NCBI RefSeq assembly: GCF_002127655.1
Contig: NZ_NEHB01000003.1
Location: 207,047-271,046 of the forward strand
DNA: 64,000 nt
Reading direction: 5' to 3'
From: Janthinobacterium sp. GW456P
Lineage (GTDB): Bacteria; Pseudomonadota; Gammaproteobacteria; Burkholderiales; Burkholderiaceae_D
Shown here: piece after piece, positions 863-55,044 of the stretch
Position numbering within the stretch: position 1 is the first letter of the stretch
Layout: each line of letters begins with the position of its first letter
Program-made: the position numbers and the translations under genes
The notes under the pieces: generated by a model
What the model saw: the letters and a program-made list of their open reading frames with translations, nothing else
What the model was told of the DNA's origin: nothing
Databases searched by the model: none

Positions 863-1798
863 ATGAAAAAAGTCATTACCGCCTCCCTGCTGCTGTCCGC
901 CGCCTGCGGCGCCTTCGCCGCCGACAAACCGCTGAAATCGATCGGCGTGAGCGTGGGCGACCTGGCCAACCCGTTCTTTGTGGCGATTGGCCGTGGCGCG
1001 GAAGAAAGCGCGAAAAAGCTGGGCGGCCCTGGCGTGAAAGTCACGACTGTTTCCAGCAAGTATGACCTGAACACCCAGGTAGACCAGATCGAGAACTTCA
1101 TCGCCAACAAGACCGACATCATCATCCTGAACGCCGTCGACTCGAAGGGCATCGCCCCGGCCATCAAGAAAGCGCGCAATGCTGGCGTGGTCGTGATCGC
1201 CGTCGACGTGGGCGCTGTGGGCGCTTCGGCCACCGTGATGTCCGACAACACCATGGCCGGCGACGTCTCGTGCGCCTACCTGGCCAAGCAGATCGGCGGC
1301 AAGGGCAATGTGGTGATCCTCAACGGCCCGCCCGTCACGTCGGTGATCGACCGCGTGAACGGCTGCAAGAAAACCCTGGCCGCGTTCAAGGATATCAAAA
1401 TCCTGTCCGACAACCAGAACGCAGGCGGCAGCCGCGACGGCGGCATGACCGTGATGTCGAACCTGCTGACGGCCCATCCGAAGATCGACGGCGTGTTCGC
1501 CATCAACGATCCGACCGGCATTGGCGCGGAACTGGCGATCAAGCAATCGAAGCGCACGGACGTGAAACTGATCACGGCCGTCGATGGCGCGCCCGATGGA
1601 CAGAACGCCCTGAAAAACAAGGCCGGCCTGTTTGCCGCCACCTCAGCGCAAAACCCGTACCGCATGGCGACCGATGCCGTGCAGATGGGCTACGACATCA
1701 TGAACGGCCGTACGCCGAAGCAGACCATGGTGCTGTTGCCGACCCCGGCCATCACCAAGGAAAACGTCGCCACCTACACGGGCTGGGTAAAGAACTGA
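863..1798 (+). CDS. Sugar ABC transporter periplasmic binding protein (ribose type)
   Basis: The start at ATG 863 is chosen because GGAG lies 7 bases before it and a standard signal peptide (MKKVITAS..., cleavage near AFAAD) follows. The mature protein of about 290 residues has the type I periplasmic-binding fold of the RbsB/XylF family: an N-terminal block like GVSVGDLANPFF, a hinge-region NDPTGIG motif and a TAVDGAPDGQ block near the ligand site. It would capture a monosaccharide in the periplasm and pass it to the permease encoded two genes downstream. The substrate cannot be fixed from sequence; ribose or another pentose is favoured by the adjacent transaldolase. A strong hairpin follows the stop codon and may stabilise this part of the message. 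Confidence 0.88.
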   Translation: MKKVITASLLLSAACGAFAADKPLKSIGVSVGDLANPFFVAIGRGAEESAKKLGGPGVKVTTVSSKYDLNTQVDQIENFIANKTDIIILNAVDSKGIAPAIKKARNAGVVVIAVDVGAVGASATVMSDNTMAGDVSCAYLAKQIGGKGNVVILNGPPVTSVIDRVNGCKKTLAAFKDIKILSDNQNAGGSRDGGMTVMSNLLTAHPKIDGVFAINDPTGIGAELAIKQSKRTDVKLITAVDGAPDGQNALKNKAGLFAATSAQNPYRMATDAVQMGYDIMNGRTPKQTMVLLPTPAITKENVATYTGWVKN

Positions 1799-1818
1799 TC
1801 TGCCTGACCTGAACCACG

Positions 1819-1850
1819 TGTCGCCCGCCCCGGCCCAAGGGCGGGCGACA
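1819..1850 (+). other. Intercistronic stem-loop between binding-protein and ATPase genes
   Basis: A perfect 12-base-pair stem (TGTCGCCCGCCC with GGGCGGGCGACA) with an 8-base loop sits 21 bases after the binding-protein stop and 26 bases before the ATPase start. No run of T follows it, so it is unlikely to be a full terminator. In other importer operons, such as malEFG, similar hairpins protect upstream mRNA and favour excess binding protein; that role is inferred here. Confidence 0.7.
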
Positions 1851-1875
1851 GTTTCAAAAGCAAGGAAGGACAGTC

Positions 1876-3375
1876 ATGAGCGACGATATTATTTTTGAAA
1901 TGCGCGGCATCGAGAAGCGCTTTGGCGCCACGCGCGCGCTGCGCGGCGTGCACCTGACGGTGCGCAGCGGCGAAATCCATGCCGTGATGGGCGAGAACGG
2001 CGCCGGCAAGAGCACCCTGATGAAGATCCTCTCGGGCGTGTACACGCCGGACGCCGGTGAAATCATTCTCGACGGCAAGCCGATCAAGATTCGCAGCCCG
2101 GGCGAGGCCCGCGCGCTCGGTATCAACCTGATTTACCAGGAACTGAGCGTGGCCAAGAACATGACGGTGGCGCAGAACGTCTTCATGGGCAGCGAACCGA
2201 AGGGCCCGTTCTGGACCGTCAAGGGTGGCGAGATGCGCGCGCGCACGAACGCCATCCTGGCCGACCTCGGTTCCCGCTTCGACGCGGACACCATGGTCGC
2301 GACCCTGTCGATCGCCGAGCAGCAGCAGGTGGAAATCGCCCGCGCCCTCGTGCACGAAAGCCGCATCCTGATCATGGACGAGCCCACTGCCGCCCTGTCC
2401 GACCGGGAAACAGAACAATTGTTCCGCATCATCGAAGAGCAGCGCGACAAGGGCCTGGCCGTGCTCTACATCAGCCACCGCATGGCCGAGGTGGAACGCC
2501 TGGCGCGCCGCATCACGGTGCTGCGCGACGGCGCCTATGTGGGCGAACTGGGCAAGGATGAACTCGATCAAAAGAAAGTCGTGCAAATGATGGTGGGCCG
2601 CCCCGCCGACGACTTTTATTCGCACCAGCGGCGCACCACGCGCGGTGCCGAGCGCCTGCGCGTGGAGAGCGTGGGCGGCGGCAAGGTCAAGCCCGCCTCG
2701 TTCGCCCTGCATGCGGGCGAAGTGACGGGACTTGCCGGCCTGGTCGGCGCGGGCCGCACGGAACTGGCGCGCCTGATCTTTGGCGCGGACAAGAAGCAAT
2801 CGGGGCAAGTGTGGCTCGACGGCGAGGAAGTGCACATCCACCGGCCGCTGGCGGCCATCCGCCACGGCATCGGCTACCTGCCGGAAGACCGCAAGAGCCT
2901 GGGCTTGTTCATGCAATTGTCGGCCATGGAAAACATGTCGATGAATATCCTGTCCAAGCATGCGACGGCGGGCGTGGTCAACCGTGGCGCCCTGACCCAG
3001 CTCACGCGCGAGGCGATTGCCAACCTGAACGTCAAGGTCTCCGGTCCGGACGGCATCGTGGGAGGATTGTCCGGCGGCAACCAGCAGAAAGTCTTGCTGG
3101 CGCGCTGGCTGGCCATCGCACCGAAAGTGCTCATCCTCGACGAGCCGACGCGGGGCGTGGACGTGGGCGCGAAGAGCGAAATCTACAAGATCATCCACCA
3201 GCTGGCGGACGCGGGCACGGCCGTGCTGTGCATTTCCAGCGAACTGGCCGAACTGGTCGGCATCTGCGACCGCGTGATGGTGATGTGCGAAGGACGCCTG
3301 ACGGGCGAAGTGACGGGCGACGACATCACGCAGGAAAACATCCTCGCCTATGCCACACAGCTGGAAGCGGCATAA
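1876..3375 (+). CDS. Sugar ABC transporter ATP-binding protein, two fused ATPase domains (RbsA type)
   Basis: This 499-residue protein powers uptake of the sugar delivered by the binding protein. The first ATPase domain has a complete Walker A (GENGAGKST, residues 39-47), a signature region LSIAEQQQVEIARAL and Walker B LIMDEPTAAL. The second half, from about residue 260, has the degenerate Walker A (GLVGAGRTE) that is normal for RbsA, XylG and MglA, with signature LSGGNQQKVLLARWL and Walker B LILDEPTRGVD. AGGAAGGA before the ATG gives a clear ribosome site. The permease starts 26 bases after the stop. The family is certain; which sugar is carried is not. Confidence 0.93.
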   Translation: MSDDIIFEMRGIEKRFGATRALRGVHLTVRSGEIHAVMGENGAGKSTLMKILSGVYTPDAGEIILDGKPIKIRSPGEARALGINLIYQELSVAKNMTVAQNVFMGSEPKGPFWTVKGGEMRARTNAILADLGSRFDADTMVATLSIAEQQQVEIARALVHESRILIMDEPTAALSDRETEQLFRIIEEQRDKGLAVLYISHRMAEVERLARRITVLRDGAYVGELGKDELDQKKVVQMMVGRPADDFYSHQRRTTRGAERLRVESVGGGKVKPASFALHAGEVTGLAGLVGAGRTELARLIFGADKKQSGQVWLDGEEVHIHRPLAAIRHGIGYLPEDRKSLGLFMQLSAMENMSMNILSKHATAGVVNRGALTQLTREAIANLNVKVSGPDGIVGGLSGGNQQKVLLARWLAIAPKVLILDEPTRGVDVGAKSEIYKIIHQLADAGTAVLCISSELAELVGICDRVMVMCEGRLTGEVTGDDITQENILAYATQLEAA

Positions 3376-33255: not shown

Positions 33256-34121
33256 CAGCCGACGATGCGCAAGGAGTAATCGGTGGCCCGCACATCCTTC
33301 GTCAGGCTGCCGATCGAGATGCGGTCCACGCCCGTCTCGGCAATGGCGCGCACGGTATCGACATTGATGCCGCCCGACGCTTCGAGCAAGGCACGGCCAT
33401 TGGTGAGGGCCACGGCTTCGCGCATCATGTCGTTGCTGAAGTTGTCGAGCAAGATGGAAACGGCGCCCGCATCGAGCGCTTCCTGCAATTGCGCCAGGGT
33501 TTCCACCTCGATCTGCACGGGCACGCCCGCATCGAGGTTGCGCGCGTTTTCCAGGGCCTGGCTGACGCCGCCGGCCGCCGCGATATGGTTTTCCTTGATC
33601 AGGATGCCGTCATACAGGGCCAGGCGCTGGTTCTTGCCGCCGCCCACGCGCACCGCATACTTTTGCGCCAGGCGCAGGCCAGGCAAGGTCTTGCGCGTGT
33701 CCAGAATGGAAGCTTTCGTGCCGGCCACCACGTCCACATACCGGCGCGTGGCCGTGGCCACGGCCGACAGCAGCTGCAGGAAATTGAGGGCGCTGCGCTC
33801 GGCCGTGAGCAAGGCGCGCGCCGGCGCCTGAAGCGTGCAGACGACGCTGTCGGCCGTCATCATGTCGCCTTCGGCATAATGCCAGACGATGTCGATGCTG
33901 CGGTCCAGGCTTTTCATGATGCCTTCGAACCACGGCGCGCCGCACAGCACGGCCGCTTCGCGCACGATGACACGGGCCGTGACGATGTGGTCGGGCGGCA
34001 CCAGCTCGCCCGTCAGGTCGCACTGGCCCACGTCTTCCAGCAAGGCGGCCAGCAAATTGGCTTCGAACGCGCGCGCCAGGGCCGGGTCGAAGGGAGCGAA
34101 AGAATTAACGAGGGTACTCAT
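33255..34121 (-). CDS. nadC: Nicotinate-nucleotide pyrophosphorylase (quinolinate phosphoribosyltransferase)
   Basis: A 288-residue enzyme that converts quinolinate and phosphoribosyl pyrophosphate to nicotinate mononucleotide in NAD synthesis. Family blocks are [74 protein letters not shown] and LLEASGGIN. The start overlaps the nadA stop by four bases. The order nadA-nadC is common; nadB, which makes iminoaspartate for NadA, is not in the window. Confidence 0.96.
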
Positions 34122-35251
34122 GCTGGACCGATTCCTTGGAACAATTTGGTTTCTTTTGCCAGGTCCGCGCCCGGCTGGATGCCAGCCTTTTTCGCGGCGG
34201 CGAAGTCGAGCATGCGCTTGATCGAGCGCACGGCCAGCTGGCCGACAGCGGGGTCGACATGGATTTCGTTGTGCATGTTTTCCAGCGTTTGCGCCAGATT
34301 CAGCAAGCCGTTCATGGCCATCCACGGGCAGTGCGCGCAGCTCTTGCAGGTGGCGCTGTTGCCGGCCGTGGGCGCTTCGATGAAGTGCTTGCCCGGCGCG
34401 GCCGCGCGCATCTTGTGCAGGATGCCGTTGTCGGTGGCGACAATAAACGTGTCCGTGTCCATGCTTTGCGCCGCCGCGATCATTTGCGACGTGGAACCGA
34501 CCATGTCGGCCAGCGCTACCACGTTGGCGGGCGACTCCGGATGCACGAGCACCTTGGCTTGCGGATACTCTTCCTTGAGCAAATCGAGTTCGATGCCCTT
34601 GAATTCGTCATGCACGAGGCAGCTACCCTGCCACAGCAGCATGTCGGCGCCCGTCTGCTTCTGGATATACGAACCCAGGTGCTTGTCGGGCGCCCACAGG
34701 ATTTTCTTGCCCTGCGCATGCAGGTGAGCAACGATGTCGAGGCCGATGGACGACGTCACCATCCAGTCCGCGCGCGCTTTTACTGCTGCGCTGGTGTTGG
34801 CGTAGACCACCACCGTGCGGTCGGGATGGGCGTCGCAGAAGGCCGTGAATTCATCGGCCGGGCAACCGAGGTCGAGCGAACAGGTCGCGTCGAGGTCGGG
34901 CATTAGCACGGTTTTCTCGGGACTGAGGATTTTCGCCGTTTCGCCCATGAAGCGCACGCCGGCCACGACCAGGGTCTTGGCCGGATGGTCGCGCCCGAAG
35001 CGGGCCATTTCCAGGGAATCGGAGACGCAGCCGCCCGTGGCTTCGGCCAGGTCTTGCAGGTCGGCATCAACGTAGTAGTGGGCAACGAGCACGGCTTCGC
35101 GCTCGATCAGCAGGCGCTTGATGCGCGTGATCAGTTCGGCTTTTTCGGCCGGGGACGGCGTCGCTGGCGTGCGTGCCCAGGCGTGGGCGGTGCAGCTGGC
35201 TCCGTCTTGTGGATGTTCGTACTCGACGGATTTGATGGCTAAAGTTTGCAT
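34118..35251 (-). CDS. nadA: Quinolinate synthase A
   Basis: A 377-residue 4Fe-4S enzyme that condenses iminoaspartate and dihydroxyacetone phosphate to quinolinate. The three cluster cysteines lie in [18 protein letters not shown] and the C-terminal [10 protein letters not shown]. Substrate-binding blocks [34 protein letters not shown] and [11 protein letters not shown] are complete. The start at [15 protein letters not shown] fits the family; an open frame runs further upstream into the palindromic element but has no support. It is first of the nadA-nadC-binding protein operon. Confidence 0.96.
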
Positions 35252-35366
35252 GGCTGTGTCAAACAAAAACGGGATAGACCGGCACGATTGCAATGAAGCA
35301 TTGCGCCGGAACGAAATAACCGCGGCGCGTCGGTGTGGTGATACCAGAGTACACCACCAGCTTTCC

Positions 35367-35488
35367 AAACGCCTGATAAAACCGTAGCGAGCGGCAGCGA
35401 TTTGTGGCCGAGAAGCGCAACCGTGCTGAAGCACGGTGAGCATCACAGGCCGCAAAGCGCGACGCGCAGCAGGTTTGATCAGGTGTTT
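35367..35488 (+). repeat. Long-hairpin palindromic element, copy A
   Basis: A 122-base element between ybiT and nadA. Outer arms AAACGCCTGATAAAACC (35367-35383) and GGTTTGATCAGGTGTTT (35472-35488) pair with one G-T wobble and one mismatch. The core folds back on itself, for example GCGATTTGTGGCC with GGCCGCAAAGCGC, up to a perfect apical stem ACCGTGC-TGAA-GCACGGT (35420-35437). The core is about 90 percent identical to the reverse complement of 53734-53822, but the outer arms are unrelated in sequence. The right arm runs into the ybiT stop codon. I do not recognise the family. Confidence 0.85.
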
Positions 35489-37085
35489 AATCGATACCCT
35501 GGCTCTTCAGGTAGTCCTCGTAGTTGCCACGGTAATCGACCACTTCATCTTCCTTGATTTCGATGATGCGGTTGGCCAGCGAGGAAACGAATTCGCGGTC
35601 ATGCGACACGAAGATCAGGGTGCCCGCGTATTTTTCCAGCGCGATGTTCAGCGATTCGATCGATTCCATGTCCATGTGGTTGGTCGGCTCATCGAGCATC
35701 AGCACGTTGTGGCGGCCCAGCATCAGCTTGCCGTACATCATGCGGCCCTTTTCACCACCGGACAGTACCTTGACGGCCTTTTTCACATCGTCGCCGCCGA
35801 ACAGCAAACGGCCCAGGATGGAACGCACGGCCTGGTCGTCGTCGCCCTCTTTCGTCCACTGGCCGATCCAGTCGGTCAGGTTCGTGTCCTTGGCGAAATC
35901 TTCCGTCGGGTCTTGCGGCATGTAGCCGACGTTGGCGTTTTCCGCCCACTTCACGCGGCCCTGGTCCGGCTGCAGGCCGGCGATGTCGCCCGCGATGCAG
36001 CGCAGCATGGTGGTCTTGCCAGCACCGTTGGCGCCGATGATGGCGATGCGCTCGCCCGCTTCGACGAGGATGCTGAAGTTCTTGAACAGCTGGCGGTCGA
36101 AGCCTTTCGAGATGTTCTCGACTTCCACGGCCAGGCGGTGCAATTTCTTTTCGCCGTCGAAACGCACGAACGGATAGGCGCGCGACGATGGCTTGATGTC
36201 GTCGACCTTGATCTTTTCGATCTGCTTGGCGCGCGATGTCGCCTGGCGGGCCTTCGACTTGTTGGCGGCGAAGCGGCGCACGAACTCTTGCAATTCCGCA
36301 ACCTTGTCTTTCGCTTTCGCGTTGTTGGCCAGCTGCTGGTTGCGCGCCTGGGTCGAGGCGAACATGTATTCGTCGTAGTTGCCCGGATAAATCTTCAAGG
36401 TGCCGTAATCCATGTCGGCCACGTGGGTGCACACCTGGTTCAGGAAGTGGCGGTCATGGGAAATGATGATCATGGTGGAGTTGCGCTCGTTGAGCACGTC
36501 TTCCAGCCAGCGAATCGTGTTGATGTCCAGGTTATTCGTCGGCTCGTCGAGCAGCAGGATGTCCGGATTCGAGAACAGCGCCTGCGCCAGCAGCACGCGC
36601 AGCTTCCAGCCTGGCGAGACATTGCTCATCGGACCCTGGTGCAGCTCGATGGCGACACCGGCGCCCAGCAACAGCTCGCCGGCGCGCGATTCGGCCGTGT
36701 AGCCGTCGTATTCGGAAACTTTGCCTTCCAGCTCGGCCGCCTGCATGTAGTCGTCGTCCGTCGCTTCCGGGTTCGCGTAGATGGCGTCGCGCTGCTGGAT
36801 GGCGGCCCACATTTCCGTGTGGCCCATCATGACCACGTCAAGCACGCGCATGTCTTCAAACGCGAACTGGTCCTGGCGCAACTTGCCCAGGCGCTCGTTG
36901 GTGTCGAGCATGACGTTGCCGCCCGACGGGTCCAGGTCGCCGCCCAGAATTTTCATGAAAGTCGACTTGCCGCAGCCGTTGGCGCCGATCAAGCCATAGC
37001 GGTTGCCGTCGCCGAACTTGACGGAGATATTCTCAAACAATGGCTTGGCGCCAAACTGCATCGTAATATTTGCTGTAGAGAGCAT
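35487..37085 (-). CDS. ybiT: ABC-F family ATPase YbiT
   Basis: A 532-residue soluble protein with two ABC ATPase domains (Walker [10 protein letters not shown] near residue 36 and GANGAGKTT near residue 345; signatures in the [15 protein letters not shown] and [15 protein letters not shown] blocks; Walker [12 protein letters not shown] and [11 protein letters not shown]) joined by a charged linker. It aligns throughout with E. coli YbiT from memory, including the opening [26 protein letters not shown] proteins act on the ribosome's E site to relieve stalled translation. There is no transmembrane segment. The second domain reads DEPTNHMD where most have DEPTNHLD. The stop codon touches the palindromic element. 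Confidence 0.93.
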
Positions 37086-52677: not shown

Positions 52678-53595
52678 TTAAGCTGGCTGGGAGCGCATCT
52701 GGGGCGCCATCTTACCTTGCAGATGCACATCGATCAAGGCGAGCAGGCGCTCGATCAGCTGGGGCGGCATGTCGTGCCCCATGCCTTCGATCACTTCGAG
52801 CGTGGCGCCGGGAATCAGCGCCGCCGTATCGATACCGCAGGCGACGGGGATCAATGGATCGGCCGCGCCATGGATCACCAGCGCCGGACAGCTGATGCTG
52901 GGCAATAGCTGCGTGCGCTCGCCCGAAGCGGCAATGGCGACCATCTGCCGCGCCACGCCTTCCGGGCAACTGCCGCGCGCCAAAGCCGCCTCGATGCGCT
53001 GGTACAGCAGTTTTTCCGACACGGGATAGGCAGGGCTGCCGATGACGCGCACGGTGGCCGCCATGTGCGCCATCAGTTCGGCGCGGCTGGCATTGCGTTT
53101 CGGACGTTGCAATAGCGCATTGCGCGCCGCCCGCGTCGGGCCGGGCAAGCCGCGCCGGCCGCTGCTCGACATGATGGAGGTCAGGCTGAGCACCTGCTGC
53201 GGCGCGCGCGCCGCCATCACTTGCGCGATCATGCCGCCCATCGACACGCCGATCACGTGCGCCTGCGCAATGCGCAAGGCCGCCAGCAAACCCAGCGCGT
53301 CGTCCGCCATGTCATTGAGGGTGTAGGAAGTCTTCAGGGGCCAGCCCAGCAGGTTTTTCACGTAGGCCAGCGGCAGATACGGTTTGCCCGCCTGCGCCAT
53401 CTTGCTCGACAACCCGCAGTCGCGGTTGTCGAACCGCAGCACCCGAAAACCTTGTTCGACGATGCCTTCGACGAAGTCCGCCGGCCAGGCGATCAGTTGC
53501 ATGCCCAGGCCCATGACCAGCAGCACACACGGGTCGCCTGGGTCGCCGTGGCTTTCATAAGCTATGTTGAGGCCGTTCGCCATGATGGTTGCCAT
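52678..53595 (-). CDS. Alpha/beta-fold hydrolase
   Basis: A 305-residue soluble hydrolase of the epoxide-hydrolase/haloperoxidase type. Visible are LLVMGLGMQLIAWP (oxyanion HG-like region), RVLRFDNRDCGLSS, the nucleophile elbow HVIGVSMGGMIAQ (serine), the acid in IHGAADPLIPV and the histidine in IEGMGHDMPPQL. The triad is complete, unlike the lipoprotein at 11969. AGAGAGG precedes the ATG. The substrate is unknown. Palindromic element copy B lies in its upstream region. Confidence 0.88.
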   Translation of the reverse strand: MATIMANGLNIAYESHGDPGDPCVLLVMGLGMQLIAWPADFVEGIVEQGFRVLRFDNRDCGLSSKMAQAGKPYLPLAYVKNLLGWPLKTSYTLNDMADDALGLLAALRIAQAHVIGVSMGGMIAQVMAARAPQQVLSLTSIMSSSGRRGLPGPTRAARNALLQRPKRNASRAELMAHMAATVRVIGSPAYPVSEKLLYQRIEAALARGSCPEGVARQMVAIAASGERTQLLPSISCPALVIHGAADPLIPVACGIDTAALIPGATLEVIEGMGHDMPPQLIERLLALIDVHLQGKMAPQMRSQPA

Positions 53596-53718
53596 GATTG
53601 CCTCTCTTCAGGAACCAGCACGCAGACACGATCGCTGCGGCCTTGCAATCAGCATACCACTATTGTGCTTCAGACATGAGACCGGCACGCGGCACCCAGC
53701 TGAAGTGTTGCTCTGCTT

Positions 53719-53837
53719 GCACATGACAGAACCTACTGCGCGTCGCGACTTGCGGCCTGCGATGCTCACCGTACCTAAAGTACGGTTGCGCTTCTCGACC
53801 ACAATTCGCTTCCGCTCGCTACGGTTCTGTCACGTGC
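53719..53837 (-). repeat. Long-hairpin palindromic element, copy B
   Basis: A 119-base element between the HmuS-like gene and the hydrolase gene. Outer arms GCACATGACAGAACC (53719-53733) and GGTTCTGTCACGTGC (53823-53837) pair with a single wobble/mismatch. The apical stem is ACCGTAC-CTAAA-GTACGGT (53768-53786). Read on the minus strand, the core is about 90 percent identical to copy A at 35384-35471. The apical pair G-C of copy A is A-T here, and the outer arms share no sequence with those of copy A. Confidence 0.85.
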
Positions 53838-53864
53838 TGACACCAACCAATTTGAAAAAAAACA

Positions 53865-55019
53865 TTATTTTGCCTTTGGCAGACTGTCGGCCAGATCCAC
53901 CCACGCTTGCGGCTGCGGTTTGCCCCGCTCGCGCACGCCGAAGAAGGAGACCACTTGCGTGCCGTCGTTGTCGAAGAACTCGACGGACGTGACGCCGCCG
54001 CGCTTGACGACCCAGCCGCTGCGCAGGGCCGTGTCGCGGATGTGCAGGTTGAAGTCCGGGTCCAGCACGTTGAAGAAACCGCCGGCGGCCATGGTTTTCT
54101 CGATCTTGCCGCTGTAGATCTGCGTCAAGCCGTCGTTGCCCAGGAAGACCATGATGGCGACCTTGTCCTTCGCCGCGTTTTCCAGCAAGGTGCGCAGCGC
54201 TTGCGGTGTCACGCGCTCGACGACGCCGGCCGGCGCCAGGCGCAGGGCCTGTTCGCGCGTCAGATGGAATTCGCGCATGATTTGCGCAAACTGGTGCACA
54301 TCCGTCATGTCTTTCCAGGCCAGCTGGAATTCCTTGACGTCGATCTCGCTGTCCGGCTTTTCAGCGGCCTTGGGCGCCACGGCCAGCACGTTCAGTTCCC
54401 CGGTTTGCTGGGGCGCACGGAAGGTCGCCACCAATTTGTCGTAGACGGCCACGCCAGGCTCGTTGCGCAGGTAGATCTTGTGCACGGCCGTGCCGTTGGC
54501 ATCAAAGAATTGCAGGCTGCGCGTGGGCTTGCCGTCGCGGCCAGCTTGTTCCACGGCAAATGCGTATTTCCAGTTTTCAAAGTGGAAGCGCAGGTCGATC
54601 TGGCCGCCCAGGTAGCCGCCCGCGATATTGCGCTGGCGCGCTTCCGTTTCCGGGTCCTTGGCGTCGGCCTGCTCGGACTTGTCGCCCGCCTGCTTGAACT
54701 TGCTGGCGACGCCCGTCGTTTCGATGACGCCGTTTTCATTGCGCGTGATCGCTTGCACAAGGCCCAGGTCCAGCGCGGCGCGCATGATTTCGCGCGGCCC
54801 GTTGCCGTCCGCCTGCAGGCGCGTGACGCCCTTGCCGATGTTGGTTGCCAGCAATTGCGCTTCGGACACGCCCAGCGCGCGCGCCGCGTCGCGGATCTGC
54901 AGCTTCGGCTGTTCCGTGCGCAAGGTGGACCAGCGTTCCGCCAGGGTGGCTGGGGCCGCATATGCGTTTGCAATCAGCAGGCTGCCTAGCAGGGATAGAA
55001 CGAGTTTGGATAACTTCAT
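53865..55019 (-). CDS. HmuS/ChuS-like heme utilisation protein with a signal peptide
   Basis: A 384-residue protein resembling hemin-degrading factor HmuS/ChuS, made of two repeated halves (about residues 30-200 and 215-380). The axial histidine region of ChuS is seen as WKDMTDVHQFAQIM, and IRDAARALGVSEAQLLAT, LRFHFENWKYAFAVE and FNVLDPDFNLHIRDTALRSGWVVKR fit the family. Unusually it starts with MKLSKLVLSLLGSLLIANAYAAPA, a clear signal peptide, whereas known HmuS proteins are cytoplasmic. It is downstream of the TonB receptor on the same strand, 61 bases away, beyond a terminator. No strong ribosome site is seen. Confidence 0.85.
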   Translation of the reverse strand: MKLSKLVLSLLGSLLIANAYAAPATLAERWSTLRTEQPKLQIRDAARALGVSEAQLLATNIGKGVTRLQADGNGPREIMRAALDLGLVQAITRNENGVIETTGVASKFKQAGDKSEQADAKDPETEARQRNIAGGYLGGQIDLRFHFENWKYAFAVEQAGRDGKPTRSLQFFDANGTAVHKIYLRNEPGVAVYDKLVATFRAPQQTGELNVLAVAPKAAEKPDSEIDVKEFQLAWKDMTDVHQFAQIMREFHLTREQALRLAPAGVVERVTPQALRTLLENAAKDKVAIMVFLGNDGLTQIYSGKIEKTMAAGGFFNVLDPDFNLHIRDTALRSGWVVKRGGVTSVEFFDNDGTQVVSFFGVRERGKPQPQAWVDLADSLPKAK

Positions 55020-55044
55020 AGAGGGACCATTCAATCAAACATGG

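Follow-up and report, generated by a model that had tools for sequence, protein, structure and literature searches.

A dispersed hairpin repeat in Janthinobacterium with one-strand constraint and one end at stop codons

The 6.27-Mb genome of Janthinobacterium sp. GW456P contains at least 96 full-length copies, each above 55 bits, of a dispersed repeat of about 120 bp (covariance model R1, 150 of 7236 candidates scored). Its stems covary around recurrent unpaired motifs, the constraint falls on one strand, one end lies at stop codons, and equivalent sites are occupied in some genomes and empty in others. We tentatively take it for a non-autonomous, REP-like element that a putative trans-acting enzyme would recognise and move in the form of a folded single strand, the likeliest of the readings considered though slightly less likely than not to be right. 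Two copies, A and B, lie in the window, that is, the whole stretch of 64,000 nucleotides that was analysed. Among the titles and abstract openings listed for the literature searched, none describes this repeat.

R1 was built from 31 copies (alignment A2). A BLAST search of the Janthinobacterium genome gave 41 matches and R1 gave 132; those that are not full-length are mostly opposite-strand echoes plus a few fragments, and both kinds were left out of the copy set. Ninety-five copies were analysed, the omitted full-length copy (C29:45291-45417, locus L018) being included in A2. The length is 124–127 nt in 78 of the 95 and reaches 153 nt in copies with inserts.

Copies A and B are both present where a sequence-only reading of the window had noticed them (Table 1). 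Comparison of the two bears out that their cores are alike at about nine positions in ten, and that the apical stem changes, with compensation, from ACCGTGC/GCACGGT to ACCGTAC/GTACGGT. Each copy folds into one long hairpin, as had been proposed; in all four folds (two copies, two strands) none of 200 shuffles was as good. The strand carrying GTAGCGAGC, termed the folding strand, gives −66.2 kcal/mol (z −7.2) for copy A and −69.7 kcal/mol (z −7.6) for copy B; the opposite strand also folds, at −60.4 kcal/mol (z −6.1) and −53.3 kcal/mol (z −5.6), respectively (200 shuffles). The pairing extends further than was first described, into an outer stem that differs between A and B and pairs in both. 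The open frame of nadA runs back into copy A, but its true start is probably near 35253 according to our reading, since the NadA match begins at residue 111.

Table 1. Features of copies A and B and their neighbours in the window, and copies of the genome that carry an insert
Feature	Position	Strand	Basis and remarks
Copy A	35365..35490	+ (folding strand; antisense to abutting ABC-F type gene)	Covariance model, 145.2 bits; fold z −7.2
Copy A, outer stem, 5' arm	35369..35383	+	Pairs with ~35472-35487; helix 1 of A2, 11/14 pairs changed on both sides
Motif GTAGCGAGC (GTAG and GA internal-loop strand)	35384..35392	+	Alignments
Copy A, middle stem, 5' arm	35397..35409	+	Pairs with 35448-35460; helix 4 of A2, pairing in 96.2% of cells
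Motif GAGAAGCGCA (two internal loops, GA / GCA type)	35410..35419	+	Alignments, motif parsing
Copy A, apical stem-loop with the covarying pair first noticed	35420..35437	+	Helix 6 of A2, 99.5% of cells paired, 4/7 pairs changed on both sides
Motif GAGCATCGCA (copy A: GAGCATCACA)	35438..35447	+	Alignments, motif parsing
Motif GCGCAG(T/C)AG	35464..35472	+	Alignments, motif parsing
ABC-F type ATPase gene (ABC_tran and ABC_tran_Xtn)	35487..37085	-	ORF, Pfam, context; copy A is bordered on the right by the stop codon, 35487-35489
nadA open frame downstream of copy A	34118..35455	-	ORF; Pfam NadA, residues 111-417; listed frame runs back into copy A
Copy B	53715..53841	- (folding strand)	Covariance model, 128.7 bits; context
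HemS/ChuX-type gene ending beside copy B	53865..55034	-	ORF, Pfam
Alpha/beta hydrolase gene, start beyond copy B	52678..53595	-	ORF, Pfam
Insert-bearing copies			L023, L025, L170, L177, L178, L179, L180, L183, L189, L191, L193, L196, L197, L198, L199, L200

The sequence-only reading had claimed covariation from two copies, which are insufficient as proof; the 31-copy alignment provides it. Standard pairs occupy 96.3% of the cells of A2, 19 of 41 pairs are changed on both sides (68 such cells), and none of 500 shuffles attains any of the five measures; when the partners are slid by 1–3 columns, pairing falls to 30–42%. The outer, middle and apical stems all vary. Among them recur the motifs CGTAGCGAGC, GAGAAGCGCA, GAGCATCGCA and GCGCAGTAG, and GCGCAG(T/C)AG recurs along with the first three; GTAGCGAGC is found in 47 of 58 parsed copies of this genome, the remainder having GTC or GTG. 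We read the motifs as three predicted internal loops of the 5'-GA / 5'-GCA type, at A2 columns 26-27/104-106, 47-48/83-85 and, inverted, 54-56/76-77. A subfamily (L185, L194 and L195, for example) has GAGTAGC...GCAAC or close forms in place of GAGAAGC...GCATC, a compensated change from A-T to T-A in helix 5, which is invariant in A2.

In other genera the stems are widely divergent yet paired. The outer arms were also compared free of any alignment, after strict motif parsing that retained 58 of 95, 69 of 82 and 21 of 30 copies in three sets. In the set from the contig scan (69 of 82 copies) 90.6% of positions pair with their own partner versus 56.9% with swapped arms, the best of 500 shuffles giving 62%; in the Janthinobacterium genome (58 of 95 copies) the values are 87.1% versus 71.1%, with a best shuffle of 73.8%. 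The contig-scan set (80 of 116 stretches) was found by means of two of the four motifs, which are therefore constant in it by construction. The sequence-only reading had named, as support for its interpretation, the occurrence of numerous intergenic copies in relatives with changes on both sides of pairs, and such copies were found.

Equal constraint on both strands would balance G-T and A-C at paired positions. Instead, they stand at 110:9 in A2 and at 95:6 in A3, an alignment fitted to the model, and ungapped pairing of the arms gives 119:26, 130:20 and 33:5 in three sets. G-T is thus far above A-C in the stems, so that one strand is constrained to fold. That the fold matters had been proposed from the first two copies; the restriction to one strand, which was not visible at that stage, is an addition. 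In the fitted alignment the bias is equally large for copies between co-directional genes (142:24), whose folding strand is read by neither flanking gene, and for those between convergent genes (93:16). We read the constraint as acting on single-stranded DNA, RNA being the alternative. It is improbable that a host protein (gyrase, nucleoid or repair protein) binds the repeat as a duplex, for which no one-strand bias is needed, or that its covariation stems from template switching that keeps the arms alike, which would straighten the GA/GCA loops (they are retained) and give no G-T excess over A-C. In favour of these readings are the wide conservation without a linked gene, and deletion remnants and short inserts, which reveal replication errors at these hairpins.

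We define the right end of the element as the end at which the folding strand has its 3' terminus. This end faces a stop codon in 70 of the 95 copies, at a distance of −16 to +5 nt in 61; among 45 left-stop copies the left end is equally close in 5 (neighbours from a codon-usage ORF caller made for this analysis). The flanking gene pairs are start/stop in 43 copies, stop/stop in 26, stop/start in 15 and start/start in 5, with one side not called in 6. Where both neighbours were called, the right end is at most 5 nt from the stop of an opposite-strand gene in 60 of 69 right-stop copies, versus 14.8 expected under uniform placement in the gap (maximum of 10,000 simulations, 25); for the left end the same simulation expects 6.8 and 4 of 41 were found. 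If stops at the ends are counted without a gene caller, requiring at least 80 open codons, they are present at 70 right and 15 left ends among the 95 copies, at 16 and 0 among 29 family loci with enough flank, and at 22 and 12 among 47 loci outside Janthinobacterium with enough flank, so that the rule is weaker in this last set. Copy A obeys it, behind the ABC-F type gene, and copy B is an exception, its right end being 119 nt from a gene start and its left end 23 nt from a stop. The adjoining stop codons are TAA (27), TAG (19) and TGA (15 of 61), a usage that does not differ from the background (45, 18 and 33 of 96; TGA versus the rest, p 0.22). At a convergent gene pair, the copy of G000 lies, in our reading, behind one gene and that of G015/G019, reversed, behind the other, each fitting the rule.

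This location directly behind stops is also what would be expected of an RNA element of mRNA 3' ends, which might stabilise or trim the upstream message, tune operon ratios, slow ribosomes at the stop or yield small RNAs like sX9. It is the main rival of single-strand mobility, though we consider it unlikely: it accounts for the place, not for the strand, since the constrained strand is antisense and in 43 of the 95 copies is read by neither flanking gene. A terminator-like T run follows the hairpin in just 3 of 95 and 1 of 95 copies on the two strands, position-wise counts in the flanks outside the element (93 of 95 copies anchored) gave no conserved promoter candidate, and neither promoter-like nor terminator-like sites were found at copies A and B. 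An intrinsic terminator was rejected on these T-run counts.

Comparison of occupied and empty sites in related species shows apparent insertion at stop codons. The copy A site, inspected in 30 Janthinobacterium loci of 40 matching genomes, holds the element in 8 (own genome included), a REP-like GTCGGATTA...TAATCCGAC repeat in the slot behind the ABC-F gene in 13 (orthologues of window positions 35255-35487), and other sequences, several of them hairpin-like, in the remaining 9; that relatives carry other hairpins at this place speaks for an RNA element. At the copy B site the element is present in 4 of 30 loci (of 35 matching genomes), and locus L104 looks like a deletion remnant. Three informative sites were found in a syntenic 60-kb stretch across 11 genomes. 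At 14.0k, the occupied site reads GGATTAA/CAACGCC...GGCGTTC/TAAGCC in G020 and the empty one GGATTAAGCC in G010; at 16.2k, GTGTCTA/GGACACC...AGGTGT/TACTC in G182 corresponds to GTGTCTACTC in G185. At both, the stop codon position and the protein end appear from the frames to be retained, and both are compatible with no duplication or with a TA/TAA duplication. At 51.4k, the element of G000, G161 and G183 is precisely absent from G185, with no duplication; other relatives also lack the flanking repeat, which clouds the history. Target duplication is demanded by none of the three sites. In the same stretch, at 28.9k, G004 retains the outer stem only.

ERIC, RUP and Correia elements are mobilised by transposases of the TA-duplicating IS630/Tc1 type. 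A miniature inverted-repeat transposon moved by such a cut-and-paste enzyme would explain the terminal inverted arms and the TA or TAA on both sides of the two clean occupied and empty sites, but it is an improbable account of a repeat that shows no duplication at the third site, whose outer arms change freely between genera, which has a single orientation relative to stops and adjoins TGA stops as well (15 of 61), and whose one-strand constraint is unexpected for a transposase acting on duplex DNA. Terminal inverted repeats that are constant within a genome, as in IS630-type miniature elements, are absent, the outer stem varying with compensation (Table 1).

Within the family, R1 has matches in 80 of 145 genomes, representing 33 of 44 genera; it also matches 41 of 250 genomes drawn from the order and 9 of 274 drawn from the class, the own genome included; the 8 outside the order have a longer form. 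Twelve to 24 candidates were scored per genome in the multi-genome searches, and 150 in one of them, so that copy numbers are lower bounds. The hosts named among the matches listed include Janthinobacterium, Massilia, Telluria, Herbaspirillum, Undibacterium, Ralstonia, Uliginosibacterium, Zoogloea, Azoarcus, Lautropia and a Gallionellaceae MAG; two loci of the contig scan (L275 and L281, among 80 of 116), in which the right-hand motif is missing, resemble chance matches. For the short form, plasmids and phages contained no match, nor did viral contigs when searched with the exact motif pattern. The core of the longer form matches, over 49–52 bases, one Yersinia plasmid and two records of one Yersinia phage (H1-H3), and the core also matches one viral contig (L390); it may travel on mobile DNA. 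In three genomes of group g42 the element occurs once, in the gap that separates a PhoU gene from an ABC transporter gene that we read as pstB, and the same gene pair and gap are occupied in four more loci of Massilia and Herbaspirillum. Conservation of this gap in two named genera is a point for an RNA element, and conservation in situ, fitting a host function as well, counts against mobility. Among other single copies, that of L213 follows a gene with an enoyl-CoA hydratase domain, next to a thiolase gene, and that of L212 follows a thiolase gene.

The sequence-only reading could not name a known family, and indeed no Rfam family reaches its gathering score in the window; in ten loci with the element, a search at E up to 5 returned no Rfam family on the element itself except two plant/animal microRNA-type matches far below the cut-offs. 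The absence of a named family stands for the form in the window but fails for its longer, distantly related cousin. Five class-level loci have a 146–148-nt form with the same general frame, with an extra stem around the apex and, by eye, a stop codon at the right end in L385, L386 and L389. This form contains Rfam RF02228, sX9 (cut-off 44 bits), with 51.6 bits in L385, 46.8 in L387, 39.2 (below the cut-off) in L389 and about 24 in L386 and L388, the gathering score being reached by only two of the five. The match runs between the apex and the outer stem on the strand complementary to the folding strand, and the catalogued small RNA family thus seems to be half of such a hairpin, that is, one arm. 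The Rfam model has a length of 76 nt and a different structure, while the arm found here is paired with its partner in a long hairpin; the short form of the window is unmatched. Passages in the respective papers place sX9 among the twenty most prevalent annotated sRNAs (PMC9029176, a review), report its genes as up-regulated under copper in Xanthomonas (PMC10924375) and mention two Herbaspirillum genomes for which it was predicted (PMC6337395). As an RNA first known from Xanthomonas that is reported to respond to copper and apparently corresponds to one arm of the longer form, sX9 favours an RNA element. An anti-hemB RNA match at L208 (1622-1730, minus strand; 45 bits, cut-off 49.5) was rejected, as it ends exactly at the start of the element and merely abuts it.

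Single-strand mobility is suggested by the likeness to REP elements (REP, BIME and REPIN with RAYT). According to a passage in PMC8266576, these are dispersed extragenic palindromes with GTAG and a bulged stem, and TnpA-REP reads GTAG, the bulged stem with GC and a CT beside the foot on one folded strand of single-stranded DNA; REP termini with GTAG often provide stop codons to flanking frames, as stated in a passage of PMC3733652. In our repeat, GTAG recurs and one strand is constrained, but GTAG sits inside a longer stem; CT is found near the right foot in 47 of 95 copies versus 17.7 expected, an excess partly confounded by stop codons. Unlike REPs of 20–40 bp, the element is about 120 bp long, has an additional covarying stem outside GTAG and outer stems that vary between genera, and has no RAYT gene beside its copies. 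Nor is there an association with PF01797 over 145 genomes (element in 75 of 132 with it and 5 of 13 without, p 0.25), and G176, a genome of two contigs with at least 24 copies, has no PF01797 match. A RAYT partner, supported by neither linkage nor co-occurrence, was retained as an analogy. A REP-like set of features of the kind read by TnpA-REP, together with the misfit in size and linkage, leads us to favour mobilisation in trans by an enzyme acting on single strands.

In this mechanism the active form would be one folded single strand, antisense to the gene that usually precedes the element. Folded single-stranded DNA would be recognised by a trans-acting enzyme, most likely a single-strand transposase of the HUH type that serves REP elements, which would use GTAG and the GA/GCA internal loops as recognition features and place the hairpin at the 3' ends of genes. 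The persistence of copies might then reflect tolerance of a hairpin behind a stop, or a slight benefit of it as a structure of the 3' end. Several results go against this proposal. Among the loci compared, no transposase family recurs next to the element, none of the three Y1_Tnp genes in this genome has a good match to it within about 1.5 kb, and the PF01797 association is lacking as described. Single-strand transposition at replication forks might leave a bias between chromosome halves; none was found among the 62 copies listed from three genomes (p 1.0, base 1 taken as origin). Finally, a stop codon of three letters is too short for a target defined by sequence alone, so that the placement is unaccounted for.

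Two other types of element were compared. Integron attC sites are imperfect palindromes behind a stop codon, in which the strand antisense to the gene folds. The repeat resembles them in these traits; it differs in that its neighbours are ordinary chromosomal genes, and an attC identity was rejected since the conserved GTTRRRY / RYYYAAC ends of these sites are absent from the position-wise counts at both ends. Integron attC sites are also discussed in a passage of PMC8266576. The element also shares with ERIC/RU elements (sizes of RU from the abstract of PMC2759123) and with Correia and RUP elements an intergenic location, a length above 100 bp, a palindromic structure and a MITE-like character. 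It differs from them in its one-strand constraint, its orientation to stop codons and the turnover of its outer arms, and its sequence is not known to be related to theirs.

A broader proposal, which we regard as doubtful, is that the repeat represents a class of mobile hairpins recognised as single strands, in beta- and other Gammaproteobacteria, that some undescribed mechanism would direct to stops, always with the same orientation, and with the common small RNA family sX9 as one arm. If so, a frequent repeat of these bacteria has been overlooked or annotated piecemeal as small RNA, and counts of sX9 in genomes and RNA-seq would need rereading. The rule that the right end lies at a stop, with the folding strand antisense, asks how stops become DNA targets or why mainly such insertions survive, and the GA/GCA loops with one-stranded covariation make the binding partner amenable to pull-down.

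Some minor observations concern single loci and variants. Locus L042 contains a Y1_Tnp-like gene (1453-2160, plus strand; 30.6 bits) with no flanking repeats within the locus; its HUH region reads DQLH, from which one histidine has presumably been lost. In L007, which is the same place as L049, two copies (1365-1491 and 1501-1626) stand in direct tandem with a repeated CCACCAGCGT flank. An insert of 13–14 nt is present in 16 of the 95 copies (Table 1), being GGGGCGCCGAGCC-like after the apical stem in ten, its reverse complement in the 5' middle arm in four, and both in two. The loop of an unrelated, REP-like repeat, which G186, G019, G015 and G187 carry at the copy A site, holds a very similar CCTCGGCGGCCCC stretch, and this looks like a micro-insert of 13–14 nt common to different hairpins.
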